NCBI RefSeq assembly: GCF_033095985.1
Contig: NZ_AP026802.1
Span: 1 to 64,000, forward strand
Source of the DNA: Xylocopilactobacillus apicola
Lineage (GTDB): Bacteria > Bacillota > Bacilli > Lactobacillales > Lactobacillaceae
Direction: 5' to 3'
DNA length: 64,000 nt
Below, piece by piece: positions 20,389 through 53,500 of the stretch. A program made the position numbers and the translations under genes. Positions within the stretch are counted from its first letter, which is position 1. Each line of letters begins with the position of its first letter. A model generated the notes under the pieces. It ran no database searches and was not told the DNA's origin. It worked only from the letters and a program-made list of their open reading frames with translations.

Positions 20389-20512
20389 ACAAAAAGCCAG
20401 TGCGTTAACACTGGCTCTGGTAAGCCGCTTTAAAGGCGGTGACCAATTATATTGTAGACATTTCTGCCACTCTATAACCTGTCAAAGTTATATAGAGCGG
20501 CTTTTTTTTATC
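20389..20512 (+). ncRNA. Antisense antitoxin RNA, locus A (predicted)
   Basis: The predicted RNA of about 124 nt begins with the hairpin AGCCAGTG/CACTGGCT, then AAGCCGCTTTAAAGGCGGT. It ends with a terminator (CTCTATAAC/GTTATATAGAG, then CGGC and eight T, 20466-20510). It is complementary to the 3' end of the holin-like toxin mRNA, as in the TxpA/RatA arrangement. The same structure recurs at 24235-24359. Confidence 0.65.
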
Positions 20513-20617
20513 TATCGTGATGTTAACAATTAAGATGCCAAACATGAGCATCAGGGATAGCGCTTCGAAAACTGACAAAGCTGGCTGATTTCCTTTCAAG
20601 TGTAATTGCAAAATCAT
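20447..20617 (-). CDS. Type I toxin, TxpA/holin-like family, locus A
   Basis: A 56-residue peptide starting at the ATG that follows AGGAGGT (start 20617). It has one hydrophobic segment (ALSVFEALSLMLMFGILIVN), typical of the holin-like/TxpA toxin family, and a tail KKKPLYITLTG that resembles the KK..PIYITV tail of TxpA as I recall it. The tail is translated through the terminator hairpin region. The gene overlaps the antisense RNA encoded on the other strand. The minus-strand transcript would end at the AGCCAGTG hairpin followed by TTTTTG (about 20390). Confidence 0.75.
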   Translation of the reverse strand: MILQLHLKGNQPALSVFEALSLMLMFGILIVNITIDKKKPLYITLTGYRVAEMSTI

Positions 20618-20688
20618 TCGCAACACCTCCTCTCGAAGATCACAGTCACCGCCCATAAAACTCTTACTACAATGAGAATAAAATAAAA

Positions 20689-20713
20689 AAGCCGGTGCGC
20701 TAACACCAGCCTA
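20689..20713 (-). terminator. Terminator of the ABC transporter operon
   Basis: On the minus strand GGCTGGTG-TTAGCG-CACCGGCT is followed by TTTTTTA, three bases past the permease stop. It uses the same hairpin family as the toxin loci. Confidence 0.7.
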
Positions 20714-24359: not shown

Positions 24360-24475
24360 CTATCGTGATGTTTCATGATTGCAACAATTAAGCTGCCAAA
24401 CATGAGCATCAGGGATATCGCTTCGAAAACTGACAAAGCTGGCTGATTTCCTTTCAAGTGTAGTTGCCAAATCAT
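24356..24475 (-). CDS. Type I toxin, TxpA/holin-like family, locus B
   Basis: A 39-residue peptide with the same ribosome binding site (AGGAGGT) and nearly the same membrane segment as locus A (ALSVFEAISLMLMFGSLIVA), ending in MKHHDR. A short length difference before the hairpin puts it in another frame from locus A, so it stops before the terminator region and lacks the YITL tail. Confidence 0.75.
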   Translation of the reverse strand: MIWQLHLKGNQPALSVFEAISLMLMFGSLIVAIMKHHDR

Positions 24476-24578
24476 TTGCAACACCTCCTCTCGAAGATCA
24501 CAGTCACCGCCCGTAAAACTCTTACTAAATGAGAATAACATAAAAAGAGCTGGTGAGCTAACGCCCTCTTAAAATCAT

Positions 24579-35723: not shown

Positions 35724-35820
35724 GGGAGCGGATGGGTTCTGGTGTTCCCTCTGGTCTTCAAAACCAGTATGAGGGGTTTAAAGCTTCTTGGGTGGGTTCG
35801 ATTCCCACACGTTCCCGCCA
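35724..35820 (+). tRNA. selC: tRNA-Sec (anticodon UCA)
   Basis: A 97-nt tRNA with encoded CCA. The anticodon stem-loop CTGGT-CTTCAAA-ACCAG carries TCA at 35758-35760, like E. coli selC. The acceptor arm GGGAGCG pairs with CGTTCCC (one G-T pair), the discriminator is G, the T-arm is GTGGGTTCGATTCCCAC, and the extended variable arm is AGGGG/CTTCT. It decodes UGA as selenocysteine with SelB. It lies next to the selenium genes, on the opposite strand. Confidence 0.96.
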
Positions 35821-35934: not shown

Positions 35935-37248
35935 TTATTGATCGTTTTCGGGGAGCATGTAACGCATAATTCGCATACCCGTTGCTCGCCGCGCAAAATC
36001 TGTCGTGTGAATAACTGGTAGTTTCAGTTTTGGTGCTACTCCCATGACGGTATTGGTACAATCGGTACAGTTACCGACCATGAGCTCTTCAGCACCATCT
36101 GCTCGTAATTTTAGAATTTTTTCGGCTTGTCCTGGACAAATACCAGGGTTGATACATTTTGCTCGGCCGGTTTTTTCATCGACGACGGCGTTTTTACACC
36201 ATTCGATCCCTACTACTTCGGCATCCATCGAAGCAGCTAGTTCTTTCATTCGTTCTGGTGTTGCGCCGCATGCACAAGCGAGCAGGCCAACTTTTTTGCC
36301 TTTAAGGCTTGGAAATGGGATTGTTGCAATGACTCCGCCCGCGGTTTTACTAATTGGTTGAGTTAGATCAGTGCGAGATCCGGTGAAAGGTCCACCCAAG
36401 ATCAATTCTCCGTATTCAGCCATTTTAGGATAATCTGTTAAAATATCTCCAACTAAAGTGCCGATTGGGACGTCTAGCTTGACATCGATAACCTCATTAT
36501 CGCCGTTTAAGCGCCCAGCCACGGTAATGTCTTTGGTCATAACTGGCTTGCGGTCCTCAATTGCTTCAGCTGCTCGAAAGACAGTCTCTAAATTAGTTAC
36601 GATCGCATTAGCAGCATAAGGTAATTCATCGGTTTTTAAAAGCTTGTGGAGATTGGAATCCCGGATGATTGCCCGTTCTTCCCCTTCTGGATAGCGATTT
36701 AGCATTAACTCTAACGAAATATCGTCGTGACCGCGAATCGCTTCTTCTAGTAGAGCGACAGCATTAGTGTTTTTGCGTTTAATTGCAATTTGAACATCTT
36801 TTGCACCGACAATATCCTTGATGTATTCAATTCCACGAACAATTTTCTCGGCATCCGTAATGATGCGAGCGATGTTGTGACGCAAAACAGGTTCACATTC
36901 AGCAGCGTTAATAAATAAATGACCGTCAGGAATGGGGCGGGCATATTTAGCACCAGCTGGAAAACCAGCACCTCCACATCCGACAACACCTGCTTCAGTA
37001 ATTGCTTCTAAATTTGAAGCAGTGTCAGGGATTTTGACAAAGTCAGAACTTTGTTTTTGGTCAGCAGTAATTTCAATGTATTGATCAGTGACCTCTTTAA
37101 TGATGCCATCAACACTGGAGTGTAAATTCACGCCTAAACCGTTTGGAACGGCAATGAGCTGGCCGCGTTTAACTTTATCACCAACTTTGACAGTCGGGTT
37201 ATCGAAAGCGCCAACGCTTTGCTTCAATGATAACTTAATTAAACTCAT
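35935..37248 (-). CDS. prdC: PrdC, RnfC-like electron transfer protein of proline reductase
   Basis: A 437-residue RnfC-like protein: N-terminal sandwich domain (VGDKVKRGQLIAVPNGLGVN), glycine-rich nucleotide-binding part (VVGCGGAGFPAGAKYARP, near 88), SLBB-like region, and a cysteine-rich C-terminus (LLACACGA; GRAKCINPGICPGQ; GNCTDCTN). In clostridia PrdC passes electrons from NADH to proline reductase. Here it is the last gene of the series instead of preceding prdA. No in-frame UGA is present, so it is a Cys-only form. Confidence 0.9.
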   Translation of the reverse strand: MSLIKLSLKQSVGAFDNPTVKVGDKVKRGQLIAVPNGLGVNLHSSVDGIIKEVTDQYIEITADQKQSSDFVKIPDTASNLEAITEAGVVGCGGAGFPAGAKYARPIPDGHLFINAAECEPVLRHNIARIITDAEKIVRGIEYIKDIVGAKDVQIAIKRKNTNAVALLEEAIRGHDDISLELMLNRYPEGEERAIIRDSNLHKLLKTDELPYAANAIVTNLETVFRAAEAIEDRKPVMTKDITVAGRLNGDNEVIDVKLDVPIGTLVGDILTDYPKMAEYGELILGGPFTGSRTDLTQPISKTAGGVIATIPFPSLKGKKVGLLACACGATPERMKELAASMDAEVVGIEWCKNAVVDEKTGRAKCINPGICPGQAEKILKLRADGAEELMVGNCTDCTNTVMGVAPKLKLPVIHTTDFARRATGMRIMRYMLPENDQ

Positions 37249-37264
37249 AGATTATTTCCTCTCT

Positions 37265-38950
37265 TTAATCGTGAATGCCTAGAAACAACTTGGCATAGCG
37301 GCTCATTTTTGCCGTAGTCCAAGCAGGTTCCCAGACAAGCTTAATAGTGCATTCTTCAATTTCTTTGATTGCCAGAACTTGTTCTTTGATTTGTTCAGAT
37401 AACATCTCGCTTAATGGACAGCCCATAATAGTTAGAGTCATCGTAATTAAGCATTGGTGATTGAAACATGTTACATCGTAAATCAAGCCTAAATTAACAA
37501 TATCAATTCCTAATTCAGGGTCAATGACGTCTTCTAGTTGACCATAAACTGTATCGGCTAAAAGTTCATCTTCATTAGTTTCATTCATGGTTTTCACTTT
37601 TTTAAAAATTTTTGTAAGTTCTTCAATGATAACGGATAAATCTGTTTGTGTTAAAGTTCTAAGATCAAACAATAACTGCTCATTTTTTAAACGAGTGATT
37701 ATTGGGATTGTTGCTTGACGTAATCGAGTATCGAAATCTTGCGTAGAAATCTTCGGAGACGAAACAGCAACAATTGAGGTTGGCAGCTCTAAATTTGGGA
37801 AAGTTCCACCCCCAACTTCTGAATAACCAGCAATGATTTCTGATTTAATATCTGGTAATTGTTGCAGTTGAGCTAGGAAATACTCTGCGCTACTTTGTAG
37901 TTCGTTTTTTGTTCGAGTGAGCATCCGTAAAGTCGGGATTTCCTTTAAAGCACGGGCTGGCTCTTGGTAAATTTGCAGGGTTGCCTCTAAAGCAGCAAGA
38001 GTTAGCTTGTCAATCCTTAAGGCTCTAAGTAGCTGATGGTGTTTAAGCTGATCAATGTATTTTGATTTCCCAACAATAATACCAGCTTGGGGTCCACCTA
38101 ATAATTTGTCGCCTGAAAAAGCTACCAAATCGCTGAATTGCGCAATTTCTCTAACTGTTGGTTCATCATTAATATCTGGTAGATTGACCATTAGCCCGCT
38201 CCCGAGATCAGTAATTAGCGGTAAATTTGCTTGATGAGCAAGTTCCACCAACTCTGATTCTGGAACTTGTTCGGTAAAGCCGATAATTTCGTAATTACTA
38301 GGGTGAACTTTTAAAATAGCTCCAGTTTGTTCGTTAATTGCGCTCTGATAGTCAGCTAAATGAGTTTTGTTGGTAGTTCCGACTTCTCTTAAGGTGCTAT
38401 TAACACTTGTGATAATGTCAGGGATTCGAAACGAACCGCCAATTTCAACTAATTCTCCACGCGAGACAACTACCTCTTTTTTGTGAGCAATTGTTGATAA
38501 GATTAATAATACTGCAGCGGCATTATTGTTTACTACTAAAGCTGATTCAGTTCCTGTCAGCTCTTTTAGGATGCTTTCTACATGTTCATAGCGACTTCCC
38601 CGTTTTTTTTCATTGAGCGAAAATTCGAGGTTAGAATAATTAAAGGAAATATCATTTAATTTTTCCTTGACACACTTACTTAAAACCGATCGACCCAAAT
38701 TAGTATGGAGAATAATTCCAGTTGCATTAATTACTGGTTGCAACGAGTTAGCTGAATTTTCTTTTATTTTCTTGGTGATCATGATTTTAAGATCTGCAAT
38801 GTTTACTTGCGTGATTTTGCCGTTTTGGATTTGGGCCCTAGTGTTTTTTAACACTTGTTCGATGGCAGCTTTAACTGCAGGAGTGTTACCTAAACTTTCA
38901 ACTAGTTCATTCATCGAAGGGATTTGACGAAAAATTTCAGTCTGATTCAT
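37265..38950 (-). CDS. selA: Selenocysteine synthase SelA fused to a MIP18/DUF59 domain
   Basis: A 561-residue protein. Residues 1-452 are L-seryl-tRNA(Sec) selenium transferase: INATGIILHTNLGRS (74-88) and the PLP lysine Lys282 (AFSGDKLLGGPQAG). Residues 455-561 are a MIP18/DUF59 domain (DVIDPELGIDIVNLGLIYDV; MGCPLSE, Cys511) of the kind found in iron-sulfur assembly proteins such as SufT. Normal SelA is about 460 residues. The joint is in frame, and the internal ATG (37588) has no clear ribosome binding site, so a true fusion is likely. It overlaps the cysteine desulfurase gene by four bases. Confidence 0.93.
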   Translation of the reverse strand: MNQTEIFRQIPSMNELVESLGNTPAVKAAIEQVLKNTRAQIQNGKITQVNIADLKIMITKKIKENSANSLQPVINATGIILHTNLGRSVLSKCVKEKLNDISFNYSNLEFSLNEKKRGSRYEHVESILKELTGTESALVVNNNAAAVLLILSTIAHKKEVVVSRGELVEIGGSFRIPDIITSVNSTLREVGTTNKTHLADYQSAINEQTGAILKVHPSNYEIIGFTEQVPESELVELAHQANLPLITDLGSGLMVNLPDINDEPTVREIAQFSDLVAFSGDKLLGGPQAGIIVGKSKYIDQLKHHQLLRALRIDKLTLAALEATLQIYQEPARALKEIPTLRMLTRTKNELQSSAEYFLAQLQQLPDIKSEIIAGYSEVGGGTFPNLELPTSIVAVSSPKISTQDFDTRLRQATIPIITRLKNEQLLFDLRTLTQTDLSVIIEELTKIFKKVKTMNETNEDELLADTVYGQLEDVIDPELGIDIVNLGLIYDVTCFNHQCLITMTLTIMGCPLSEMLSEQIKEQVLAIKEIEECTIKLVWEPAWTTAKMSRYAKLFLGIHD

Positions 38951-40107
38951 GTTCTGGCTTCCCTTTCTAGTTCATCAGAGAGTGTTTTGATTGCCTTAAC
39001 CGCTTGATCGACATCACTTGGCTGGTTGAAACTTGAGAAAGAAAATCTAACCATCCCCTGATCCTTAGTCTTAAGCGCACAGTGTAGAAGAGGAGCACAA
39101 TGAGCCCCAGCCCGAGTTGCGATGTCATAATGCGTCTGAAGGAAGTCGCTTATTTCAGCTGAGTTTATATCCCCTAGATTAAGACTAACCGTCGCCACTT
39201 TCGGGCGATTTAAATTTCCATAGATTTTAACTTGTGGCAAATTTTTGATTCCTGCAATGAAACGATCGGCTAAATTCCTTGCAACAGTGCCTGAATTCTC
39301 AATTCCTTGAGCTAAAACATATTCGATTCCAGCACCCAATCCAGCAATGCCAGCAACATTTAAGGTTCCCGCTTCAAGGTGCTCGGGAAAAACAGCTGGT
39401 TGATCATGGTTAAAAGAATCAATTCCGGTTCCTCCCGAGATCAAAGGTTCAATAGCCAGTTGATGGCTTAAACAAATTCCGCCCGTTCCCTGGGGGCCGA
39501 AAAGAGATTTGTGACCAGTAAAACAAAGAACATCAATGCCATCGCGTCTAACGTCAATCGGTATAACACCCGCTGTCTGGGCCGCGTCGACAACCATTAA
39601 TAATTGGTTCTGGTGACAAAAATCACTAATAAACTTAAGGTCCAATATTTCGCCAGTCACATTTGAGGCGTGAGGACAAACGACCATTTTAGTGTTAGGT
39701 TTGAGGAGTCGCTCAAATTGGTTGTAATCCAGAGACCCATCTTTGTTTAGTCCAACAAAATCATGTTCAATACCGGTTTTTTCTAACTGATAAATTGGCC
39801 TTAGCACTGAGTTATGATCTAATGTAGTTGCAATAACATGATCTCCTGATTTCAAAAGCCCTTTGATGGCAAAGTTTAAAGCTTCTGTTGCGTTATTTGT
39901 AAAAGCAGTCAAACTAGGATCTGCTAAATTGAACAATTTTCGAATCAATTTACGGGTTTTGAAAACTTCATCAAGAGCGTTGACTGAAGCATTGGAAGAA
40001 CCACGAGCTGGATTTCCAAACTTTGCACTACTAATTATTTCAAATACTTTTTTTCCAACAATTGATGGTTTAATTAGTGTAGTAGCCGCATTATCTAGGT
40101 AAATCAT
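38947..40107 (-). CDS. Cysteine desulfurase family protein (selenium-associated type)
   Basis: A 386-residue PLP enzyme with MIYLDNAATT at the start, the PLP lysine Lys200 (FTGHKSLFGPQG) and the sulfur-accepting Cys337 (TRAGAHCAPLLHC). It would liberate selenium or sulfur from selenocysteine/cysteine to feed SelD or cluster assembly. It is of the subgroup found beside selD/yedF genes in Firmicutes. It overlaps both selB (4 bp) and selA (4 bp), so it is translationally coupled to both. Confidence 0.9.
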   Translation of the reverse strand: MIYLDNAATTLIKPSIVGKKVFEIISSAKFGNPARGSSNASVNALDEVFKTRKLIRKLFNLADPSLTAFTNNATEALNFAIKGLLKSGDHVIATTLDHNSVLRPIYQLEKTGIEHDFVGLNKDGSLDYNQFERLLKPNTKMVVCPHASNVTGEILDLKFISDFCHQNQLLMVVDAAQTAGVIPIDVRRDGIDVLCFTGHKSLFGPQGTGGICLSHQLAIEPLISGGTGIDSFNHDQPAVFPEHLEAGTLNVAGIAGLGAGIEYVLAQGIENSGTVARNLADRFIAGIKNLPQVKIYGNLNRPKVATVSLNLGDINSAEISDFLQTHYDIATRAGAHCAPLLHCALKTKDQGMVRFSFSSFNQPSDVDQAVKAIKTLSDELEREART

Positions 40108-42002
40108 GTCGTTTCATGACCTTTCTTTAATATCCGTTTATTGCTCGATCTTTCAGTAATTCCGTCTTGATCCATTTTAGTCAAAACCAACATTGCATAA
40201 CGTCGACTTGATCCCGTTAAATCACGGTAATCTGCCAAACTCATTGGACCATTTTCTTTAATAAAGGATCTAACTTGCTCTGCTATTTTTTGATAAACTT
40301 CTCGATCGATTACGGTTTCAGAATCTAAAAGAACCACATCATCTCCAATCATTGACATTAGTACTTCTTTTGCTCTGGCCTGTCCATTAACCAGTTCATC
40401 AATTGAAGGAGGTGTATTACCTGAAGCCACTAATCGTTGATGGATTTCTAATTGGATTGCTTGATCTTCTTTAGTCAGTTGCGGTGAGAAGGAGGCCAAG
40501 TGATAATTTTCACCATTTATTCTAATCAGATCTTTTGTTTCGAGATATTTTAAAATCACTTTTGCAGCAGATTCACCAATTTCAGCACTTAATTGGGCTT
40601 GAACTACTGATCTTGGACAACCTGAACGAAGAGGATACTGTTGGTGATATTTCTCTAGCTCATTAATAATTTGTTGATTTTTGAGTTTAGCATTTTTGAT
40701 CACCAACAATTGATTGTCAATTTTTACAATTTCCTGATCAGTGATTAGATTTTCAATTTCCCGGGAAATAATGTTAGGACTCTCGTTAAAAGTCACTGCT
40801 AGATCCTTTGGATTGAGCAAATATTCTTTTTGATAAGATGCATAGTCAACAATCATTTCTTTTAATTTGCCGCGATGGCGAATTTTTAATTGCTGCAAAA
40901 TCTGTTGATCAAATCTTTTTCGAGTTGGGGGTTTCGGATCTAAAATTTGACCACCACCCAAGGTTATTAATGGTGAGTAGGAACGAATAATGAAATGATC
41001 GCCATACTTAACCACAATAGGTTGCTCTAATCTAATTTGTGCAAAGCACTCGCTTTCTGGTTTAAAATCATCAGTCCCTAAAGGATAAATCCTACCCAAA
41101 ACTTCAGTGGCACCAACATAAACGTGAACGCGGGTGTTAAGTTCTAGTAGCTGCTCTTTGAAATTCAGGGTCTTTAAATTGACATTAATTTCGTCAGTAA
41201 TTTGAACAGTATTTTTGGTTGCAATAACGGAACCACGGGAAATTTCGTCAGCAGCTAAATTAACATTTAATGCTGTTCGCTGACCAGGTAAAGCAGTATC
41301 AGTTGCTTGATCATAAGTTCTCACGCTTTTTACGTGAACATTTTTCTCTTCGGGATAAAGTATTAGGTTATCCCCGTTTTTAACAGCACCCTCTAAAAGG
41401 GTGCCAGTTACGACGGTTCCAAAACCTTTAATAACAAAATTACGATCAATGTTCAAACGAGCAAAACCAGTGTTTTTTCGAGGTTTAATTTTTTGGGACA
41501 TCTTTTGAATTTCTGCAATCAAATCATTTAGTCCAAACCCGCTTGCAGCATCAGTCTTAATGATTGGAGCATTTATAAGCACCGGGTCAGATTTAAAAGT
41601 TTCCTTGATGTCAGAGATTGTAAATTCAATCATTTCCTGATCAGTAGTTTTAACTTTTGTTAAAACAATAATAAAATTAGTCAAACCAATTAGGCGCAAA
41701 ATGCTGGCATGTTCAATGGTTTGTGGCATGACGCTTTCATTGACATCAATAACAAGAAGTACTAAATCCACGCCAGATAAGCCCGCTAACATGTTTTTTA
41801 AGAATTTCTCATGACCGGGAACATCGACAATTCCAACTCGTTGATCGTTAGGTAATTTCAAAAAGGTAAAACCCAGATTAATTGTAAGACCACGGCTCTT
41901 TTCTTCTTCGGTAGTATCGGTATCAACCCCAGTAAGACTTTTGATCAGGGTTGTTTTACCGTGGTCAACGTGTCCTGCTGTTGCAATTACTATTTGATCC
42001 AA
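40104..42002 (-). CDS. selB: Selenocysteine-specific elongation factor SelB
   Basis: About 632 residues. The EF-Tu-like GTPase has GHVDHGKTTLIKSLTG, DVPGHEKFLKNML and the switch region SRGLTINLGF. Domains II and III follow, then C-terminal winged helices (final part MSLADYRDLTGSSRRYAMLV) that bind the SECIS hairpin. I choose the TTG at 42002 because AGAGGA lies six bases before it; ATG codons at 42017, 42047 and 42065 lack such a site. The start overlaps the DUF3343 gene. SelB brings Sec-tRNA to UGA codons. Confidence 0.95.
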   Translation of the reverse strand: MDQIVIATAGHVDHGKTTLIKSLTGVDTDTTEEEKSRGLTINLGFTFLKLPNDQRVGIVDVPGHEKFLKNMLAGLSGVDLVLLVIDVNESVMPQTIEHASILRLIGLTNFIIVLTKVKTTDQEMIEFTISDIKETFKSDPVLINAPIIKTDAASGFGLNDLIAEIQKMSQKIKPRKNTGFARLNIDRNFVIKGFGTVVTGTLLEGAVKNGDNLILYPEEKNVHVKSVRTYDQATDTALPGQRTALNVNLAADEISRGSVIATKNTVQITDEINVNLKTLNFKEQLLELNTRVHVYVGATEVLGRIYPLGTDDFKPESECFAQIRLEQPIVVKYGDHFIIRSYSPLITLGGGQILDPKPPTRKRFDQQILQQLKIRHRGKLKEMIVDYASYQKEYLLNPKDLAVTFNESPNIISREIENLITDQEIVKIDNQLLVIKNAKLKNQQIINELEKYHQQYPLRSGCPRSVVQAQLSAEIGESAAKVILKYLETKDLIRINGENYHLASFSPQLTKEDQAIQLEIHQRLVASGNTPPSIDELVNGQARAKEVLMSMIGDDVVLLDSETVIDREVYQKIAEQVRSFIKENGPMSLADYRDLTGSSRRYAMLVLTKMDQDGITERSSNKRILKKGHETT

Positions 42003-42252
42003 GTTCAATCCTCTCATAATGGGTTTTGAGCCCGTTTTTGTGTCCGACATATATTGCATTTTCATTGTCTAATAGTTTAATTATCTCTTCAAGGTCTTCA
42101 ACTGCACAGAAGATACTCAAACCACACCCAGCGCTTATTGTTCCAGGTGTAGTTAAAACCCGTGTTTGATAATGCTTAGCTGTCAGAAGGTCTTGTGCTT
42201 TAATTGCTAATTGAGTTGACTCAAAAACAATTAACCCGAAATCGTCATCCAT
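41965..42252 (-). CDS. DUF3343 protein, selenium-locus associated
   Basis: A 95-residue protein: GLIVFESTQLAIKAQDLL, VLTTPGTISAGCGLSIF and EEIIKLLD, the DUF3343 pattern (putative selenium or sulfur carrier-related, function unproven). A single conserved cysteine sits in SAGCGLS. It lies three bases after yedF and overlaps the start of selB, fitting the frequent yedF-DUF3343 pairing. Confidence 0.82.
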   Translation of the reverse strand: MDDDFGLIVFESTQLAIKAQDLLTAKHYQTRVLTTPGTISAGCGLSIFCAVEDLEEIIKLLDNENAIYVGHKNGLKTHYERIELGSNSNCNSRTR

Positions 42253-42255: not shown

Positions 42256-42906
42256 TTATGGTTTAACGATGCGTTGAGCCTTGCGCATTAGTTCTAAGAT
42301 ATGGTACAAATTCGTAATTTCACCCACTTGTAATTGATCTTTGATTCCGTAGAAATCTACACAAGTTCCGCAGACCAAAATCTTAACACCCTTTTCTTGG
42401 AGTGCTTTAATGTCTGGAACCGATTCAGAGCCTTCAACGAGAAGTTTGACGCCGCCGTTAAAGAAAATAACGGTTTCTGGTAAAACATCTTGTTCAGTTA
42501 GTGAATAAATGAAGCTCTTCATGAGAATCGCGCCAAGTTGATCATCGCCTTGTCCCATGACGTTGGTGCCGATAACCGTTAAATAACCATCAGACAACCG
42601 GACATTATTAACAAAAGCTGGTTCGATTGCTTGAGTTAGATTATCATCAATTGCTTGTGAGACTTTAGCAGGTGTTGGGATCCTCTGGATTGCAGAATTT
42701 TCGCGGTTAATCTCAATTTGAACATCTTGGTTTCCAATTTCTTGTTTACTAAAAGAATATTGCAATTGTTGAGCTAATTTTTCAAGATTTTCTGCTGCCT
42801 CTTCATTATCAACGGTAATCTGAATTTCAGTGTGATCTCTGAGTGCTTTTTTTGCCTTAATTACAGGTAACGGACAAGCAAGTCCGCGCGCATCAATTTT
42901 TTTCAT
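42256..42906 (-). CDS. yedF: Selenium metabolism protein YedF (TusA-like plus DsrE-like)
   Basis: A 216-residue two-domain protein. The TusA/SirA-like N-terminus has DARGLACPLPVIKAKKAL (Cys11). The C-terminal DsrE-like half has VIFFNGGVKLL and ILVCGTCVDFYGI (two cysteines). It is thought to carry or deliver selenium in Sec-using bacteria. It stands between selD and the DUF3343 gene with short gaps. Confidence 0.92.
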   Translation of the reverse strand: MKKIDARGLACPLPVIKAKKALRDHTEIQITVDNEEAAENLEKLAQQLQYSFSKQEIGNQDVQIEINRENSAIQRIPTPAKVSQAIDDNLTQAIEPAFVNNVRLSDGYLTVIGTNVMGQGDDQLGAILMKSFIYSLTEQDVLPETVIFFNGGVKLLVEGSESVPDIKALQEKGVKILVCGTCVDFYGIKDQLQVGEITNLYHILELMRKAQRIVKP

Positions 42907-42915: not shown

Positions 42916-43947
42916 TTAATCTACGATAATGTCTGCGGCCGTGGGGACAGGTTTCTTTTGGATTCGGCCAATTTTACTAAATGGAACTTTTTTCTGAGTC
43001 ATTTCAGCCATCATTGCCTCGGCGTCTTCAGCTTTAACGCTGATTAAAAGACCACCAGAAGTCTGGGGATCAAAGACGATTTCTTCTAAAGCATGATCGA
43101 CAAAGTTGAAATGAATTCGCTCTTTGAGAAATTTTCGATTCCTTTGGCCGCCAGCAGTAACTAATAAATCTTCCGCACAGGCGTAAGCCTCAGGAATGAT
43201 TGGTAAATCTTCGGCCTCGATAACAGCTTGATGTTGACCACCTGTAAGCATTTCAGCCAAGTGACCGGCAAGACCAAAGCCCGTTACATCAGTACAAGCG
43301 CTAATTGAATACTTGCGCATAACCATAGATGCATCACGGTTAAGCATTGTCATAGAGGCAACGGCTGTATTGAAAGCTTCAGGGCTTACCGCTTCGGCTT
43401 GATAACTTGCGGTGATGATTCCCACTCCCAATTTCTTGGTTAAGATCAAAACGTCGCCATCATTAACCTTGTTATTGCAGATAATTTGATGAGGGTCAAT
43501 TGAGCCAGTAACTGAAAGTCCATACTTGGGCAAATGGTCATGGATGGAGTGCCCTCCTGCAATGACGCCTCCTGCTTCAGTAACTTTCTCTTGGCCGCCA
43601 GCTAGAATTTTCTTCAAAGTTGTTAAACTACCCTTTTCCGGAAAACAAACGATATTGAGCGCTAATAAAACATCGCCGCCCATTGCAAAGATGTCACTTA
43701 AGGCGTTAGTTGCAGCAATTTGACCAAACAGATAAGGATCAGTGACCATTGAAGGAAAGAAATCAATTGTTTGAATAGTCGCAAGATGCTCATTTAATTG
43801 ATAAACTGCTGCGTCATCAGTAGAGTCAAAACCTACTAGCAGCCGAGGATCGTGATTTTGGGGCAAATCATTTAAAAGATTTTTGAGGTCCCCTGGCCCC
43901 ATTTTGGCATTACATCCACCACAGACAAACAATTGTTCTTCATCCAT
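42916..43947 (-). CDS. selD: Selenophosphate synthetase SelD
   Basis: A 343-residue protein. The active-site pair is Cys12 and Lys15 in CGGCNAKMGPG, equivalent to Cys17/Lys20 of E. coli SelD. The ATP/metal-binding parts VGFDSTDDAAVYQ, ATNALSDIFAMGGDVLLALN and DVTGFGLAGHLAEM follow. It makes selenophosphate for SelA. It uses Cys, not Sec. It begins after a hairpin that separates it from the TSUP gene. Confidence 0.96.
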   Translation of the reverse strand: MDEEQLFVCGGCNAKMGPGDLKNLLNDLPQNHDPRLLVGFDSTDDAAVYQLNEHLATIQTIDFFPSMVTDPYLFGQIAATNALSDIFAMGGDVLLALNIVCFPEKGSLTTLKKILAGGQEKVTEAGGVIAGGHSIHDHLPKYGLSVTGSIDPHQIICNNKVNDGDVLILTKKLGVGIITASYQAEAVSPEAFNTAVASMTMLNRDASMVMRKYSISACTDVTGFGLAGHLAEMLTGGQHQAVIEAEDLPIIPEAYACAEDLLVTAGGQRNRKFLKERIHFNFVDHALEEIVFDPQTSGGLLISVKAEDAEAMMAEMTQKKVPFSKIGRIQKKPVPTAADIIVD

Positions 43948-44038: not shown

Positions 44039-44920
44039 TTATTTAGCAGTTTTGCGAAAACCTTGATATAACATTGTTAAAGCGGTATAAGCAACAACAA
44101 TGATAACAAGCCATGACAAAACTTTAACGTCAAGACTTTTAACAAATTTAACTGCAACATAAACACCGATTACTCCACCGATTGTAATTCCAATCGAACC
44201 CATTCGGTTATAATCGCCCTTTTTAATGAATTCGCGGCTAGCAACTGGCATTAAGGCAGCACAAGATGCCATCATAATTGGAAAAGCAGCGATTGGAGTT
44301 AGGCCTAAAAGGTAAATCATTGCCATACAAGGAGCATAAAGCCCGATTCCGGCAGTCATAAGAGCTCCTAGGATTAAATTACCAATAATTCCAATGAATA
44401 GTTTGCCACCAGTTAAGGCAGTAGCTTCATTACCGTTTCCAAGTCCTGCTAAAACACCAGTATTTTGTAACAGCATCAAGATTGAAGTTACGACAAGGGC
44501 AAATCCCATAATTATTTGAATTTTCTTCTCATCAACTTTTGCAATAAATTTAGAGCCAAAAAATGAACCAACAGCTGAAGCGATTACTAGTGAGATCAAA
44601 GTTAAACCGTCAACTTTGACCGAAGTAATAAACATAAATGCTTCAACTAAAACCGGAATAGAACAAGCAACATTTAGAGTTCCAGGTAGCAACTTGTCAG
44701 ATTTTAAAAATTTTGTCAGCTTTAAAAACATTGTGGTTGGTGCATAGCTACCAATCCCGAGGGCATCAAAAAAATTACAAATAAATCCAATGCCCCCCGC
44801 AATATAAACATTTCCATCGTTAATCTCATCGCGATGTTTTACTAGATCACGAATCCAGATAAACGCAAAATAGATGCCTAAAATGCCTAATAATATTTGA
44901 AGTACAGTCTTAATTGGCAA
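44039..44920 (-). CDS. TSUP (TauE/SafE) family permease
   Basis: A 293-residue integral membrane protein with about eight hydrophobic helices and the family's repeated halves (GGIGFICNFFDALGIGSYAP and ILGALMTAGIGLYAPCMAMI). TSUP proteins move sulfite, sulfonates and other small anions. Between prdF and selD, selenium or sulfur oxyanion uptake, or proline/5-aminovalerate handling, are possibilities. None is proven. Confidence 0.85.
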   Translation of the reverse strand: MPIKTVLQILLGILGIYFAFIWIRDLVKHRDEINDGNVYIAGGIGFICNFFDALGIGSYAPTTMFLKLTKFLKSDKLLPGTLNVACSIPVLVEAFMFITSVKVDGLTLISLVIASAVGSFFGSKFIAKVDEKKIQIIMGFALVVTSILMLLQNTGVLAGLGNGNEATALTGGKLFIGIIGNLILGALMTAGIGLYAPCMAMIYLLGLTPIAAFPIMMASCAALMPVASREFIKKGDYNRMGSIGITIGGVIGVYVAVKFVKSLDVKVLSWLVIIVVAYTALTMLYQGFRKTAK

Positions 44921-44932: not shown

Positions 44933-45949
44933 CTATTTCAGTGTAAATCCTCCAGATAATGGATCTGACGGATCGAACAAGAAGGTGTTAAATCCAGTAA
45001 GATATGCCGATCCGGTAATCTCAGGAATAATTGCATTAACTCCGCCGATCGAAGTTTCTTCGACTACTCGGCCAACAAATTTGGTATTTAGAATACTTTC
45101 ATAAACAAATGGCTCGTTTAAGCCAATCTGTTTTTTGGCATACAAGGTCGCTAATTTAGCACTGGTACCAGTTCCACAAGGAGAACGATCAACTTGACCA
45201 TCGCCAAAGACTACGACGTTTTGCATTGTAGCATCACTAGACTGCGGCTCACCGTACATTTCTACTAAATCAATGGTATTGATATAGTCCATGGCCGGAT
45301 GTTGAACCGGAATCTGTTCATTAGCAGCTTTAAGAATTTTCATTCCAATTTCTGCCAACTGGTTACTATTGTTTTTTTCAATTTTTAAGTTGAGTTCAGC
45401 GATTGGTAAAATCGCAAAAAAACTACCCCCAAATGAAACATCTAGTTTGATTGAACCCAACTCAGCAACATTGATTTCAACGTCACGCTTCAGTAAGAAT
45501 GCAGGGACGTTACGAAAAGAAACGCTTTGAACATGATATGGTTCATCTAAATGAGCAGTTGCGTGAATAATTCCCGCAGGTGCTTCTAAGACAACCTCTT
45601 TTTCACGGTCGTTCTCTGAAACGTCAACCATGCCAGTTTCAACAATTGCAGTTACTGCGGCAATCGTATTGTGACCACACATGTTTAAATAACCGCCAGT
45701 ATCCATGAAGATAATGCCAAAATCAGCTTCGTCGCTGACAGCAGGAATCAAAAATGCGCCAAACATTTCATCGTGTCCCCGCGGTTCCAGCATTAAAGCT
45801 TTACGTAAATCATCTTTTTCTTCTATTAAATACTGTTTCTTTTCGGCAATCGTTTTACCCTTTAATTTTGGAATCCCTCCAGTAATGATTCTAGCTGCTT
45901 CACCAGCCGTGTGAGAATCGATCCCTGAAAGCATTCTTGAAATTTTCAA
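44933..45949 (-). CDS. prdF: Proline racemase PrdF
   Basis: A 338-residue proline racemase with the two catalytic cysteines Cys91 (GYLNMCGHNT) and Cys258 (VDRSPCGTGTSAK). It converts L-proline to D-proline, the substrate of the reductase. The start is a TTG overlapping the prdE stop (TTGA), indicating coupling. Length and motifs are normal. Confidence 0.95.
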   Translation of the reverse strand: MKISRMLSGIDSHTAGEAARIITGGIPKLKGKTIAEKKQYLIEEKDDLRKALMLEPRGHDEMFGAFLIPAVSDEADFGIIFMDTGGYLNMCGHNTIAAVTAIVETGMVDVSENDREKEVVLEAPAGIIHATAHLDEPYHVQSVSFRNVPAFLLKRDVEINVAELGSIKLDVSFGGSFFAILPIAELNLKIEKNNSNQLAEIGMKILKAANEQIPVQHPAMDYINTIDLVEMYGEPQSSDATMQNVVVFGDGQVDRSPCGTGTSAKLATLYAKKQIGLNEPFVYESILNTKFVGRVVEETSIGGVNAIIPEITGSAYLTGFNTFLFDPSDPLSGGFTLK

Positions 45950-46440
45950 TTGTTTTCCTCCAATTCAGCAGACTTTTGATCTGCACGCATTTTTAATTTT
46001 AAAAAACCAAGAGCTTTATTGGCATCACGTTCATCGAGACTGTTCTCTGCAAGGACCGTGGTTTCTTTGCCGCTAGGAGATTTGTTAATATCTAATACGT
46101 AAGGAGTATATTCATTAGTTACAACAAAAGTTGCTTGGGTGCCGATAAATTTTAAACCAATCACCGAGATTCCCTCAGAACCAATACTTTCCATTGTATT
46201 CATGAAATCGACATCAGAATTGCCCCAGCCATCAGCAGAGATTACTGCGCCGTCGGTTCGCATAGCTTTAAGCCATTTAGCGACTCGCTTACCAACAAGA
46301 TTCTTTAAAACATTATCCTGCGGAGTGCCGACGACAATAATTCCTTGAAAATCAATGTCTGGATCTTGGGCAAAAACACGCACCAAGGGATCCTTAAAGT
46401 GATGTTTTGTTGTTTCTTTAGTTGATGGACCAACTCCCAT
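45946..46440 (-). CDS. prdE: PrdE, homologous to the C-terminal part of PrdA
   Basis: A 164-residue protein matching the C-terminal piece of PrdA: MGVGPSTKETTKHHFKDPLV against CIGPASKETTRHYWREPLV. It starts almost exactly at the PrdA cleavage point, with Met in place of the pyruvoyl-forming Cys. AAGGAGG precedes it. The partner protein PrdD matches the N-terminal piece. Known in prd operons; the exact function is unclear. Confidence 0.88.
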   Translation of the reverse strand: MGVGPSTKETTKHHFKDPLVRVFAQDPDIDFQGIIVVGTPQDNVLKNLVGKRVAKWLKAMRTDGAVISADGWGNSDVDFMNTMESIGSEGISVIGLKFIGTQATFVVTNEYTPYVLDINKSPSGKETTVLAENSLDERDANKALGFLKLKMRADQKSAELEENN

Positions 46441-46452: not shown

Positions 46453-47193
46453 TTAAACCATTGCTCTAATTGCGCCATCGCGATACTCATTGGGAGTGAG
46501 AAGAACGGGAAAATTATTGAGATCAATAATGGAAATTCCGTCTTCCATCCCACTTGGTTCTTTGGCGAAAAGTAAATTATCATACATTGCTCCTTGGCCA
46601 GAGACTTGTTTGACAATCGCGACTTTTGGTTTACCCGGATGGACCTCATTGACATATTCATGAGTATAGTCAGCTTCCAAACCGTTAGTTACTTTCAAAA
46701 TTTTGCGAATTGGCTGAATGTAAGCATCAGCAAAAGCAAAAATTTCGGTCATCGACTTACGATCCATCTTGGAGGTGCTTTTAACAATGACATTAAACAT
46801 AATAATGTAATCATTAGTGCCTGGCGTTCCATCGCGGTCTAACATGATTTGATCTTTTAAGATTCCATCAGAAGATCCAAAATCATGGATTTGGCGCCCT
46901 TGTTGATCTGCGCCAGTTAGTAGCACACAAGTACCGGTGAGAGTATGGGTAATCCCCTCTCCGATGTTTCCCAGCACTTTAGTAGAGATTGGAATAACAT
47001 CCATAATGGCGTTAGTGGGCACATCTAGTTGATTAGGGGGCAAAACTTTAATTTCAACCGATTGAAAATCAGCTGGCAGCACTTCTTGCGGCTTTTTTGG
47101 AATCACTAACTGATGATCCTTAAGCTGATAACTATCTCCTATTTGAACGTGGTCAATAATAAACTCTTTAATCTTAAGCGTTTCATTAGGCAT
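46453..47193 (-). CDS. prdD: PrdD, homologous to the PrdA proprotein N-terminal part
   Basis: A 246-residue protein similar to PrdA residues 180-424 (NAIMDVIPISTKVLGNIGEG; VKQVSGQGAMYDNLLF; NEYRDGAIRAMV at the end). It ends where PrdA would be cleaved and lacks the pyruvoyl Cys. It lies 31 bp after prdB and 12 bp before prdE. Confidence 0.88.
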   Translation of the reverse strand: MPNETLKIKEFIIDHVQIGDSYQLKDHQLVIPKKPQEVLPADFQSVEIKVLPPNQLDVPTNAIMDVIPISTKVLGNIGEGITHTLTGTCVLLTGADQQGRQIHDFGSSDGILKDQIMLDRDGTPGTNDYIIMFNVIVKSTSKMDRKSMTEIFAFADAYIQPIRKILKVTNGLEADYTHEYVNEVHPGKPKVAIVKQVSGQGAMYDNLLFAKEPSGMEDGISIIDLNNFPVLLTPNEYRDGAIRAMV

Positions 47194-47224: not shown

Positions 47225-47950
47225 TTAAATTTTAGCAAGATATTCATATGGTAATGGGATGATTTTACCTGGTTGTTCAAGCTTTTCAAGCTGAGATAAA
47301 GTATCCTTTAAAATACCAGTTTGCATTTCGATATTATGAGGTTCACCAGCGTTAGCTCCCATTGGAACACGAGGAGCAACGGCCCGTGGAGATCCTTGTT
47401 GACGTACGACTGGAGGTAGGGCTGCAATAATAATAGTTGGGATGCCAACTTCTTCAATAGCTCGCTGCACGATCACGGCAGTTCTATGACAGGTCCCTCA
47501 CCCGGCAGTTAAAACAACAGCATCAACTTTTTCTTCTAATAATTTTTGAGCAATTTCCGGCCCAGTTTGTTCGGTGAAGACTTTAACGTCTCCCCCGCCA
47601 CCCATACAAGTATACATGCTTGGAGCAACTGCCTTGATAAAGCCAGAATCAGCTAATTCGCGTAGGCGGTCGATTGGAAACATTGAGTTGATATCACGAT
47701 TTACATCAGTATTATCGTATCCGCCATGAGATACCATCAATTCATCGGTTTGAGCGGTTCCTGGAACCATCCGATATGAAGTATCTCCTGCAAGGTTAAA
47801 TGGTTTATCAGTTTTTAAATGGACGCCTGCTGCGGTAACTAGCGCAACAGTCATATCTTTTAACGGTTTAGTAACTGGTGCCCAAACCGGTTTTGGGGTA
47901 ATCGGGACAAAAATTTCTGATTGTAGTCCCTCAAACTTCTTGAGACTCAT
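47225..47950 (-). CDS. prdB: D-proline reductase selenoprotein PrdB
   Basis: Read with UGA as selenocysteine it is 241 residues, the usual PrdB length. The UGA (47498-47500) is Sec151 in VVLTAG-U-GTCHRTAV, giving the family's UxxC motif. Frame and homology continue after it (VQRAIEEVGIPTIIIAALPP; RAVAPRVPMGANAGEPHNIE). It is the catalytic selenoprotein that reduces D-proline to 5-aminovalerate together with pyruvoyl-PrdA. Automatic callers will split it into 47498-47950 and 47225-47476. Its start overlaps the preceding gene by 20 bp. Confidence 0.96.
47465..47481 (-). promoter_or_regulatory. Candidate SECIS hairpin in prdB
   Basis: Downstream of the UGA by 16 nt, CTGC (47481-47478) pairs with GCAG (47468-47465), with a possible inner CG/CG, around a short loop containing UGAU. 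Position fits a bacterial SECIS, which SelB binds right after the UGA. The stem is short and I have not folded it quantitatively. Confidence 0.5.
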
Positions 47951-48281
47951 TGTGAGTACTCCCTTCCTTTAATAAATTTCTTTGTTTGGTTTTTTCTTGA
48001 ACTTCTCGCATCCTCTGATGATAAGCGGCTAATGCATTAACGTATTTTTCATTTGGAGCTTCTTGTATGACTTCAGGATAAGACATTAAGAAAGCAACTT
48101 CTTGTCCGATGCGCATTTCGTATTCGGTAATAACCATGCGTTTAGGAACTTCAAGTCGTCCCATCCGGCCCTTGAGGTCAATTACAACACTAGCATCAGT
48201 CAACTCAATGATGACACCCTGCCAAACAGTTTCAGTTGATGCGTATTTAAGTTCATCAAAGCCAATATTTTCTTCGGCCAA
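47931..48281 (-). CDS. Small proline-reductase-cluster protein (CBO2463/CBO2479 type)
   Basis: A 116-residue protein between prdA and prdB, the place where clostridial operons also carry a small gene. Features: VWQGVIIELTDASVVIDLKGRMGRLEVPKR, a beta-rich core read in two parts, and a charged helical C-terminus (HQRMREVQEKTKQRNLLKEG). Role unknown. It starts five bases after prdA and overlaps prdB. Confidence 0.8.
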   Translation of the reverse strand: MAEENIGFDELKYASTETVWQGVIIELTDASVVIDLKGRMGRLEVPKRMVITEYEMRIGQEVAFLMSYPEVIQEAPNEKYVNALAAYHQRMREVQEKTKQRNLLKEGSTHNESQEV

Positions 48282-48286: not shown

Positions 48287-50179
48287 TTAACCTTCGGCTT
48301 TTTCGTAAATTTCACGCCGTTTTTTGCTCATTGGCAGAGATTGCTCATTTTGAACCAGATGAATCTTTTGGCCCGTCTGTTTTTCAATCACTTCAATGTT
48401 ATTTTGTTTAACATTTGGATTCCATTGACGTTCTGGTTTCTTAATCGTTCCACCAGCCATTTTGGTTTCCAGCATTGCTAGAGCCCGGACAGCTTCTTCA
48501 GGACACAAGGTGTTGTTTGAGAGAACTTCGTTTTCAATTCCCTGACGCGACTTATTATTGTCAACCATTGCATCCATATATTTGTTACCAGTGACTAATT
48601 GGCCTTGGACAGCTGAGAAAGTAACCCCAACGACAGCAACACCGCGTTTACCAATTTCTTCATGGTGGAATCCGAAGTCAATATGATTATTACCAAAACC
48701 TTCAGTTGTAATAATTGCACCATCAAGGTTCATCGCTTCAACCATCATTCCAAGACGTTTTGAAACGTAGGATTTTTGGGTGTTTTCCTGGGGAGAACCG
48801 ACTAAAGCAACACCTACTAAATCGATGTCTTCGTTATGCATAGCTTCTTCTACTAGAGGTTCTCTCCAATAGTGGCGTGTCGTTTCCTTAGAAGCAGGTC
48901 CAATACAAGTTAAAGCATGAATTCCGCCATCTAAAAGCTCAGTTGGCGCTAAAACTACCGGAACATTACCAAGGTCAACGTTTGGTTTTGCTCCCAGAGT
49001 TCCAGCAGGTTCTACTGGCATGATTAAGTTATCATGCATTGCACCCTGGCCCATGATTTCCTTAACGATAAGTACGCGTTTTTGACTTGGGTGACGTTTT
49101 TGAACAAATTCTTCACTATGGTCAACTAAACCTGCATCCGCTTCTTTTAAAGCTTCCCGAATTTCTTCAGTAATTGTATCTGTTGCCAAGTGGGCAGACA
49201 ATGGACCTTTACGCTCACGGTTAGTACCAGCGGCAACAGTGATGTTGAGTTTGATCATAATATCGCCTTTATCAACAGCGCCTGGACGACCCCACATGAT
49301 ATTTTCATCCATCGGGCCTTCAGATGAACCAAATTCACCGATTTGGACTCCGTTTTCGTCAGTTCCGGTTAAAACCATTACGACGCCATCTAAGACACGA
49401 GTGACACCTTCACCGATCTCACCTTCTTGCTTGGTTGCAATTGGCTGGACATCCATAATAGTATTGCTAAATTCATGATATTTATCTGGTGTAATAATCT
49501 CCATACTCATATCTTTAACAATATCTTGAGTTTCAACCGCTTCTTTGCATAAATCCTCAGCACTGCGCAATTGAAGAGTTTTTCCTTTGATCTCTGTTTT
49601 ATCACCAAAGGTAACTTTTTCGATTGGATAGTAGTCCTTAACCAATTTGCGGACTACCGTTGCTTCAACTTGTTCAGATTTATCCTCTGTAGGAGCAACA
49701 TCTGGACTTTCTGTTGTCTTTTGAGCTGGTTTGTTAGGATCCGTTGGTGCATCTGGTAAGACATTTTGTAACGCACTTAAAGGAATCTGCAAATCAATCC
49801 CCTTACCTTCAGCAATTGAAAGATGCAAAGTATTACCATCTTTAGTTATACCAGGAGCAACTGGTGCTGGACTTGGAGCCGCAGCAATAGGTGCAGCAGT
49901 CTCTGGTTTAGCTTCAGTTTTTGTTTCTTGGACCTGATCAACTGAATCAGGAGTTAAGGGAACTAAAGCATCTGTTGTTTTCTTTAAGGTCCCTCCCAAA
50001 GCTTGACCAATACTGAGCACGTCCTCAGGAATAGTTAACAATCCTGAACTGACGTAATCATCAAATAAAGTCGGATCTTCAAAATCAGCGGCTTCTAGAA
50101 CTTTGCCACTATCTCGACGACAACAGAGAACGGCTGGGTCAGCAGAATGCTCCTTCGCCATTTCTGGTGTAATAGACAT
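48287..50179 (-). CDS. prdA: D-proline reductase proprotein PrdA
   Basis: A 630-residue proprotein. A Pro/Ala-rich linker lies at about 85-170. The self-cleavage site is Cys425 in GGIHALTCIGPASKE, which would give a C-terminal subunit of about 206 residues starting with a pyruvoyl group; this matches Cys421 known in Clostridium sticklandii. The pyruvoyl binds D-proline and PrdB supplies the Sec. It is the first gene of the leftward series, with GGAGG upstream. The following gene is five bases away. Confidence 0.95.
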   Translation of the reverse strand: MSITPEMAKEHSADPAVLCCRRDSGKVLEAADFEDPTLFDDYVSSGLLTIPEDVLSIGQALGGTLKKTTDALVPLTPDSVDQVQETKTEAKPETAAPIAAAPSPAPVAPGITKDGNTLHLSIAEGKGIDLQIPLSALQNVLPDAPTDPNKPAQKTTESPDVAPTEDKSEQVEATVVRKLVKDYYPIEKVTFGDKTEIKGKTLQLRSAEDLCKEAVETQDIVKDMSMEIITPDKYHEFSNTIMDVQPIATKQEGEIGEGVTRVLDGVVMVLTGTDENGVQIGEFGSSEGPMDENIMWGRPGAVDKGDIMIKLNITVAAGTNRERKGPLSAHLATDTITEEIREALKEADAGLVDHSEEFVQKRHPSQKRVLIVKEIMGQGAMHDNLIMPVEPAGTLGAKPNVDLGNVPVVLAPTELLDGGIHALTCIGPASKETTRHYWREPLVEEAMHNEDIDLVGVALVGSPQENTQKSYVSKRLGMMVEAMNLDGAIITTEGFGNNHIDFGFHHEEIGKRGVAVVGVTFSAVQGQLVTGNKYMDAMVDNNKSRQGIENEVLSNNTLCPEEAVRALAMLETKMAGGTIKKPERQWNPNVKQNNIEVIEKQTGQKIHLVQNEQSLPMSKKRREIYEKAEG

Positions 50180-50556: not shown

Positions 50557-53500
50557 TTATGGTGTGTTATTGACTAAAGTAAAAGTAATTTGACCATTAT
50601 AACTTCCAGCCGTTGGAATATCACTTGGAATTGATTTAAAGCTTAACGTCCAGGGATAATTCTTAGTATCTGGCTTGTTATCACTTTTAGTCCCACTGTA
50701 AATCGTCTGTCCTGTTGACGTCAGATGCGTTGTTGTCCCTGCTGTTGTATCGTGATAGTATAGCGGATCTCCCTTAATTACCTTTGTAGAATTTGTTGTC
50801 AGCGTAAATGGTTTCGTTACCGCTGCCTCAATATGCCACTGCTTTGCGGTATCGCTGTTGCGGTTGTCGGTTTTCTTTATATTCTGGGAATCACTCACAT
50901 ACTCCTGATTCTTTAAATATCCCTCATGCGTCCCAAAATCAATACTTCTGGAAGTCGCTTCTAAAGTCTGAGTCCCTACCTGATCCCACACGTACGTTCT
51001 TGTATCGCTTCTTACAGCTGATTCATTCATCATCTGGGTTACAGTCAGCTCATTTCCTTTTGGTTCGTGCGGTGAACCTGTTCCAACTTCTCGCCACTGA
51101 GGATTAGTTACATAGTAAATCGGTGTCGGATTATCAACATCATTGATCGCATCCTCGACAGTAGGGTTTGCTAACATCTCGTTGCTGACATAATCTTCAA
51201 GGATAAAATTCGGTCCAAATGTGATCTTCCAGAGCTTCGGTGTATTCGCCAGCATCCCTTTGCGATAGCTGCTGTACACCCGCTTTGTGTTGAATTGGGT
51301 TAAATCCAAGCTTGTTAATTTACTACACCCACTGAACATCGCATTAAAGTTACCCACTTTTTCGGTGTCAAAGCCGCTTACATCTAACCTTGTTATCTCG
51401 GCACAGCCGCCAAACATTCCATTCATATTCGTCACATTTTTTGTCTTAAAAAAGCTGACATCAATATTTGGCAGTACGGTACAGCGATTAAACATATTAT
51501 CCATTGCCGTTACCTGACTCGTGTCAAACTTCACTGAATCCAGCTTGAGATCAGTCATCGACCGGCAGTAGTAGAACATCCCTGACATACTGGTAACTTT
51601 GCTTGTATCAAAATTCCTAAGATCAAGTGTTGTTAGCCCAGTACTAAAACCAAACATCGAACGCATATCCAAAACATTACTGGTAACGAAATTATTCAAA
51701 TTTATTGTTGGTAACGAGCTACATTCGAAAAACATTAAACTCATATCTGTTACCAGACTGGTGTTGAAGTGGGTCACATCTAAACTGGTTATCTTCTTGC
51801 AGCTCGTGAACATTGCTGACATATTTGTTACTTTGCTGGTATCAAATTTGGTCACATCGATATTTGTTAAGTTATTGCACTCCTTAAACATCGCTGCCAT
51901 ATTTTCCACTTTACTGGTATCAAAATGGGTCACATCTAGATTAGGCAGCTGACTACAGTAGCCAAACATGCTAGACATATCTGTTACGTTGCTTGTATTA
52001 AAATTGGTTACGTCTATCGCTGTTAATGACGAACATTGCGAAAACATTGAGCTCATGTTGGTCACTTCACTGGTGTCAAGCTGGGCAAGGCCCTCAATTG
52101 AGGTCATTGCACTCATTCGGCTGAAAAGTCCAAATAGTGAATTCTTGGCAGTCACTCCAGGAGAAATAACCGTTTTAACGATCTGACTATCTTTTCGATA
52201 CCAAGGCCAGTCTGATGTGGGTTTTCCATCATCACCAATGTAATTAACACGATCTACATCAAAATTCAGCTCATGCGGATAGATTGTCAATACGTTGTTA
52301 CTATCAACAACCCACCAGCTCCCTAAATTAAAAGTTGTTTGATTACTCACCCCATCTTGATCTTTGATGGTCACCGTGATCGTTTGATTATAAGTATCTG
52401 AAGGATTGTAGCCCATGTCATCTGGTAGTTGAGCGGTCCAATTCTGGTCAACTCCTGAAGCACTGGTGATTAAACGATTCAATACCCCAGTCGTTGGATT
52501 TTGTAAATTCCAAGGGACTGTTTTTGTCACTCCGGTTTTGGACCGGTATGTTAAATAAAAATCGACGTACGCGGGATTACCAACAACTCCAGTTGAACGG
52601 TTATTTACTTTTCCGCTAATAACCGAATGATCTCCATTATATTTAGGCTGATCGGTTTTGACTGTTGGCCGAAAAATTAAGATTTTATTGCTTGCGCTAT
52701 TAGTTTCACTAGTTGTGGCAGGTTTGGTCCCAACTTGATAAGTTAACGTGGCTTTATTGGGGTAGCCGAGATAAAAGCTTTGAGGATCAGCGGTTGACTG
52801 CCATTGAGCTTGCCAAGTCGCTGAATTATTTTTGTTGACACATCCTTTGATTAGAAAAGTGAAAATATGGCCAGCAGTACCGTAAAAATTGGTGTCTGAA
52901 AGAGCGGTGGGTTTGGCTGCAATAGTCAAATGATTTAAAGTATTAATGGTAATATCGAAATTGTTAGTAACAACGTTTCCGTCCTCATCAGTTACTACCA
53001 CGTCGAGTGGATTAACCTGCCAGGCGGGATTAAGATCGTCTTCGATCTGATACTTTTTTAAATAATCTGCAGGACTTTGAGGGTAAGTCAGAATTTGAGT
53101 GATTGAATATAGAGGCCGGACCTGACTTGGGTGAATCGTTGGATAGGGCGGGTCAAGTAACGGAGTTGGTTGGAAATCGGAGAGGGTCCCGAGCGGCAAG
53201 GCTTGAGCGTTAATTGTAAGCGGGTCGATACTTTCATCATTTCCGGCTTTGTTAGCACCTGGCATTGCAATATTAGCCAAAGAACCCAAGATAAAGCCGC
53301 TGCCTAAAATTCCCCAAGCATCAGGCGTAGTTTTAAATTCGTATTGAAAACCAGATTTATTTTCGAAAATTCCTGTTAACTGTGATGGTGCAGTAATGGA
53401 CCAAGTATCAGCAGAAAAATCAGTTAGCCCATTTAAGCCAGGGGCGTATTTGATAATCGTGTCGCTTCTGGTATAAATTTTGATAAATTGATTAATATCA

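Follow-up and report, generated by a model that had tools for sequence, protein, structure and literature searches.

Probable selenocysteine at an in-frame UGA in prdB of Xylocopilactobacillus apicola, beside a compact set of prd and sel genes

The prdB gene of Xylocopilactobacillus apicola in all likelihood (probability about 0.97) codes for the selenocysteine (Sec) subunit of D-proline reductase; its codon 151, a UGA, would be decoded by tRNA-Sec via SelA, SelD and SelB and a hairpin in the mRNA. Sec at this codon had been proposed in a first-pass annotation. The proposal is borne out because homology extends over the full length of the protein, the TGA is conserved in relatives, all usual Sec genes are present in the neighbourhood, selA co-occurs with TGA-bearing genes among 397 genomes, and the codons of a short block after the TGA are constrained. 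Kabisch et al. reportedly dealt with a Sec-containing PrdB in 1999. Sec in PrdB is the correct reading and an ordinary one for D-proline reductase; in the portions of PMC3091704 and PMC13188914 used here PrdB is a long-known selenoprotein.

The prdB frame and its gene cluster

In the window, i.e. the whole 64-kb stretch of DNA that was analysed, prdB runs on the minus strand from 47950 to 47225. A single in-frame TGA is located at 47500-47498, corresponding to residue 151 of 241. The first-pass annotation had described two fragments in one frame separated only by this TGA, a joined length of 241 residues and a UGTC motif at residue 151. Translation of the minus strand confirmed each point and supplied the strand, which had gone unstated; the plus strand of 47225-47950 translated with many stops. 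The residues around the TGA are VVLTAG-U-GTCHRTAVIVQ and contain a UxxC redox motif (U151-G-T-C154). Upstream of the prdB ATG is the purine-rich, ribosome-binding-site-like AAAGGAAGGGAG. When read through, the protein matched the D-proline reductase PrdB profile TIGR04483 over its full length with 405 bits (E 9e-122; cut-off 300 bits; residues 7-240 on profile positions 4-237 of 238). Lower-scoring matches were the models of the glycine/betaine/sarcosine reductase selenoprotein B and PF07355 (GRDB). A PDB search yielded one match, a 36-residue stretch of SAKe6BE-L1 (7ong), which was taken as unrelated to PrdB.

Table 1. Features of prdB and of the surrounding prd and sel genes (positions in the window).
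Feature	Position	Strand	Basis
prdA, D-proline reductase proprotein	48287..50179	-	TIGR04480, 929 bits
CBO2463/CBO2479-domain protein between prdA and prdB	47931..48281	-	NF041553; same position in relatives
prdB, 241 aa, probable Sec at residue 151, UxxC motif	47225..47950	-	translation and TIGR04483
In-frame TGA, taken as selenocysteine codon	47498..47500	-	ORF map, translation, homologues
Conserved 17-nt block CTGCCGTGATCGTGCAG, putative SECIS apical hairpin	47465..47481	-	16 nt after TGA; codon constraint
prdD	46453..47193	-	TIGR04482, 346 bits
prdE-like, resembles C-terminal part of PrdA	45946..46440	-	TIGR04480 positions 415-566
Proline racemase family (prdF-like)	44933..45949	-	PF05544; NF010576 487 bits, under cut-off 556
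TauE/SafE-type membrane protein	44039..44920	-	PF01925; same position in relatives
selD, Cys form (CGGC)	42916..43947	-	TIGR00476, 370 bits
yedF-like (TusA + DsrE)	42256..42906	-	PF01206, PF02635
DUF3343 / Se-S carrier-like	41965..42252	-	PF11823
selB	40104..42065	-	TIGR00475, 350 bits
Class-V aminotransferase, cysteine desulfurase/Sec lyase-like	38947..40107	-	PF00266
selA fused to DUF59/SufT-type domain	37265..38950	-	TIGR00474 at 12-446; TIGR02945 at 466-559, under its cut-off
prdC, Cys form (CTDC)	35935..37248	-	TIGR04481, 589 bits
selC, tRNA-Sec, anticodon TCA	35724..35816	+	RF01852, 69.1 bits; ARAGORN 35724-35820

The protein genes of the cluster, between 50179 and 35935, are without exception on the minus strand, and prdA and partner prd genes adjoin prdB (Table 1). 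tRNA-Sec, selA, selB and selD are all present in the genome, within the window, and selC is the single tRNA-Sec match above gathering score in the whole genome. SelD and PrdC are in the Cys form; therefore, no gene of the cluster except prdB is TGA-bearing. An internal stop was encountered in one of 40 window genes checked, i.e. in prdB. Ten of the 40 terminate in TGA, thus TGA is an ordinary stop in X. apicola. That the UGA is decoded as another amino acid or passed by leaky readthrough, without Sec, is extremely improbable given these terminal TGAs, the restriction of an internal TGA to prdB and the presence of selA, selB and tRNA-Sec, which track the TGA-bearing genes. As side observations, the window contains at 50557-54102 (minus strand) a large cell-surface-like repeat protein with 85 related matches in the genome and 75 in its sister, an unusually large family. 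It also has two matches above gathering score to the Listeria sRNA family rli28 (20505-20690 and 24366-24547, minus strand).

Are other selenoproteins encoded? GrdB-type genes did not turn up in the X. apicola genome in the search that revealed them in other genomes. Molybdopterin oxidoreductase (PF00384) had no match in the genome, and the same search was positive in 11 of 14 controls. The absence of a match to GrdA (PF04723) carries no weight because the controls had none either. PrdB is perhaps the single UGA-bearing gene which the Sec machinery serves.

In the proposed mechanism, UGA codon 151 of prdB would be decoded by the tRNA-Sec at 35724-35816, charged through SelA with selenophosphate supplied by SelD. 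SelB would deliver the charged tRNA-Sec and bind a putative short mRNA hairpin that begins 16 nt past the UGA; such binding of a hairpin by SelB is a general feature of bacterial Sec insertion. As judged from homology, the pyruvoyl group of PrdA would then bind D-proline, the selenol of PrdB would cleave the ring to yield 5-aminovalerate, and PrdC, here in the Cys form, would re-reduce PrdB. The scheme for Clostridium sticklandii, in the portion of PMC3091704 used, has PrdF making D-proline, the PrdA pyruvoyl group binding it, the PrdB selenol attacking the alpha carbon, the ring being opened to 5-aminovalerate and PrdC re-reducing PrdB. In addition to Sec insertion the UGA might serve as a switch: at low selenium translation would stop at residue 150 and downstream expression would drop. 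The general logic of UGA decoding and the location of prdB mid-way in the prdA-to-selA gene run point in this direction; overall, we consider such a switch unlikely.

Conservation of the TGA and co-occurrence with Sec genes

PrdB loci in named genomes were searched with peptide patterns placed away from the TGA, and 79 loci (the best 80 of 271 confirmed) were compared. TGA was at the PrdB site in 79 of 79, which are not all independent because several are from the same species. The loci, again from the best 80 of 271, include Loigolactobacillus, Bombilactobacillus, Companilactobacillus, a Limosilactobacillus MAG, Enterococcus, Vagococcus, Gemella and clostridia. PrdB of Loigolactobacillus bifermentans and of Bombilactobacillus mellifer is 87-88% identical to that of the window. 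According to the first-pass annotation, homologues that end at the UGA or continue past it with unrelated sequence would speak against Sec; such homologues were looked for and none was found. Eleven pairwise comparisons gave dN of 0.07-0.19 vs dS of 1.0-1.8 3' of the prdB TGA. On the 5' side dN was 0.08-0.22, and dS was high or not computable. By these substitution rates both halves of prdB are evidently strongly constrained as one protein. The match to PrdB is not a chance match because it covers TIGR04483 in full length, the TGA is shared by all of the 79 loci (best 80 of 271) and dN is low compared to dS 3' of the TGA.

Could the TGA be a true stop, and prdB a decaying pseudogene or two genes? 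A mechanical ORF caller does split prdB into 47950-47498 (150 aa) and 47476-47225 (83 aa, GTG start), and a 2014 paper listed the copy of Ligilactobacillus salivarius JCM1046 as 'probable pseudogene' (PMC4165912, text consulted in part). However, 79 of 79 homologues (best 80 of 271) retain the TGA as well as what follows it, dN/dS is low 3' of the TGA, and the Sec machinery is adjacent. A real stop is thus very improbable. The expectation of the first-pass annotation that prdB would be reported as fragments or as a pseudogene is accordingly matched by the 2014 listing; it does not hold for the current record of the L. salivarius copy, which has one full-length prdB.

In a family sample of 397 genomes, which includes three genus mates of the window genome, PrdB scored above cut-off in 12; eleven had one TGA and one (G224) had Cys. 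In a phylum sample of 398 genomes, 21 rows exceeded the cut-off, of which 20 carried one TGA and the remaining one, G600, had Cys. These Cys homologues would be in line with a sequencing error, i.e. a Cys codon (TGT or TGC) misread as TGA. Yet the identical TGA occurs in all 79 named loci (best 80 of 271), and the genome carries a Sec machinery for which it seems to have no other need. Such an error has next to no likelihood.

Sec decoding also agrees with the distribution of the machinery. Full-length selA was present in 12 of the 397 family genomes. This set coincides with the genomes that have a TGA in a PrdB or GrdB-type gene; eleven have the TGA-bearing PrdB and one (G033) has the GrdB-type gene only. 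The chance of a perfect 12-in-397 match is about 4e-23 if genomes are independent; this makes the match look stronger than it is, as the genomes are related. For selB and tRNA-Sec, 34 genomes were checked (the 12, the Cys-PrdB genome G224, G097, the three genus mates and 17 others). Both were above cut-off in 12 of 12 selA genomes and in 0 of the 22 others. In G224 no selA, selB or tRNA-Sec was found. In G033 the sel genes are beside the TGA-bearing GrdB-type gene, which takes the place of PrdB (L148, G033:C15:101000-120000). Genome G097 contains a selA fragment only (G097:C95:16154-16645; profile 289-454, under cut-off) and had no matches to selB or tRNA-Sec. Perhaps this fragment is a relic of loss.

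A tree of 89 distinct PrdB rows placed all 13 rows carrying the Lactobacillaceae label to the same side of a single branch (99/90), adjoining the rows of Peptoniphilaceae. Among these 13, the window grouped with L. salivarius, Loigolactobacillus, Bombilactobacillus and the Limosilactobacillus MAG (100/99). The Cys PrdB of family genome G224 (L009), a row without the Lactobacillaceae label, fell elsewhere together with the other Cys row; its place is unsure because the two share a long branch.

The constrained block after the TGA

Downstream of the TGA codon choice is restricted. In 11 family genes, columns with a single residue used one invariant codon in 8 of 14 cases at codons +1 to +17 vs 9 of 124 elsewhere. 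Among 63 distinct sequences of 97, wobble conservation was 0.92-0.95 at codons +6, +7, +8, +10, +11 and +12 and 0.48-0.73 at the other codons of +1 to +19. The block CTGCCGTGATCGTGCAG was exact in 60 of the 79 named loci (best 80 of 271) and occurred in a looser form in 70 of the 79. The joint usage product of five of its codons in the cluster is about 9e-5, and 0 of 20,000 synonymous recodings reproduced it. The block was absent from both Cys homologues examined (L009, L035). Wobble positions frozen in this manner would fit a SECIS element.

The block is predicted to be able to fold into a stem of 4 pairs plus 2 additional ones, with one U bulged out. As a criterion for a SECIS, the part of PMC1088965 used here gives a G in a small apical loop of a hairpin just after the UGA. 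The fold energy over 61 nt showed no extra stability (z of -0.09 vs shuffles). Synonymous recodings folded at least as well in 564 of 2000 cases over 51 nt and in 214 of 2000 over the 30-nt core. Compensatory base changes were not seen in the core helix; covariation is uninformative for this hairpin because the core hardly varies. RNAalifold predicted the hairpin with family rows only, and the run with all rows gave no such hairpin. What supports the putative SECIS is constraint on the sequence rather than energy or covariation, and conservation of codons is the better evidence. In prdB of Aedoeadaptatus and Peptoniphilus (L095, L097, L101, L135) the TGA was kept; a different sequence follows it, with a possible shifted stem.

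Gene order, related systems and significance

Gene order was compared in 19 loci, some of which end short of the expected sel genes. Bombilactobacillus, Companilactobacillus, the Limosilactobacillus MAG and Vagococcus fluvialis share with the window the arrangement prdA-CBO2463-prdB-prdD-prdE-prdF-tauE-selD-yedF-DUF3343-selB-csd-selA, and that of Enterococcus hermanniensis is almost identical. Matches to selA and selB were both within the fetched stretch in 31 of 80 loci (the 79 named, best 80 of 271, plus L136). In the clade of the window, Bombilactobacillus and L. salivarius, selA is followed by DUF59 and then by a Cys-type prdC. In the Companilactobacillus type a Sec-type prdC (CQDU) is ahead of prdA, and DUF59 had no match within the stretches read. 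Among the matches listed, prdC was matched over sufficient length in 72 loci, and 57 of these had a TGA within it.

Among the loci that show both SelA and DUF59 (window, L136, L143), only the window has them as one reading frame. DUF59 is a separate stretch directly after selA in the L. salivarius plasmid and in Bombilactobacillus. The joint in the window contains an ATG in frame, which suggests that two genes were fused when the stop separating them was lost. Possibly, the single frame is due to a sequencing or assembly slip at the joint.

Five L. salivarius plasmids carry a prdB with 87-88% identity to that of the window. From the plasmids and the scattered distribution we infer that the prd and sel unit moves between genomes. 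Comparing the locus with the sister genome G009 for an empty site gave no usable result, and no insertion site was found; the flanking kinase has distant matches only and the other flank belongs to a very large repeat-protein family. We tentatively consider, at somewhat less than even odds, that a whole Sec kit is kept for perhaps one UGA, that prd, sel and tRNA genes form a module mobile across chromosomes and megaplasmids of Lactobacillaceae, and that the SelA-DUF59 fusion hints at a link between Fe-S assembly and selenium. The idea of a module is not new because Terrisporobacter plasmids with prd and sel genes are in print (PMC10564238, seen in part); its occurrence across Lactobacillaceae has apparently received little notice.

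Several known systems are close. PrdB of Clostridium (Acetoanaerobium) sticklandii shares family, prd neighbours and the UxxC motif, with 242 aa and Sec 152 there against 241 and 151 here (portions of PMC3091704; motif from PMC13188914). In that organism PrdC, too, is a selenoprotein, and the portion of PMC3091704 used lists eight selenoproteins there; in the window both PrdC and SelD have Cys. Region R1 of pMP1046A from L. salivarius JCM1046 has the same genes including tRNA-Sec, a PrdB 87.6% identical and the order selA-DUF59-prdC. It differs from the window in that it is plasmid-borne, its SelD has a TGA, DUF59 is a separate gene and selD is elsewhere in the order. The 21-kb plasmids of Terrisporobacter are similarly self-contained (prdA/B/C/D/E with selA, selB, selC and selD) with Sec in PrdB only, according to the part of PMC10564238 used; however, they are clostridial and small, and their PrdB is about 70% identical to that of the window. 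PrdB of Clostridioides difficile is 76-77% identical and shares the TGA and the 17-nt block, but in L089, its only locus used in the comparison of gene order, selA and selB had no match within the stretch.

In our literature search, which covered sources outside subscription and these in part, no paper was recognised as devoted to Sec in lactic acid bacteria; the JCM1046 paper (PMC4165912) was on point. The main text of the genome paper on Xylocopilactobacillus from carpenter bees (PMC10433979), as far as it was available, has no words beginning with 'selen' or 'proline'. The compact prd and sel unit in a lactic acid bacterium, common to the L. salivarius megaplasmids, is the less ordinary aspect and has drawn little attention so far. 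Stickland-type proline reduction with selenocysteine thus extends to scattered lactic acid bacteria, in which Sec use is hardly discussed. This matters for annotation, as the entry of the plasmid copy as a pseudogene illustrates. It bears on the use of proline and selenium by lactic acid bacteria and offers a test case for the gain of a code-expanding module in one piece.
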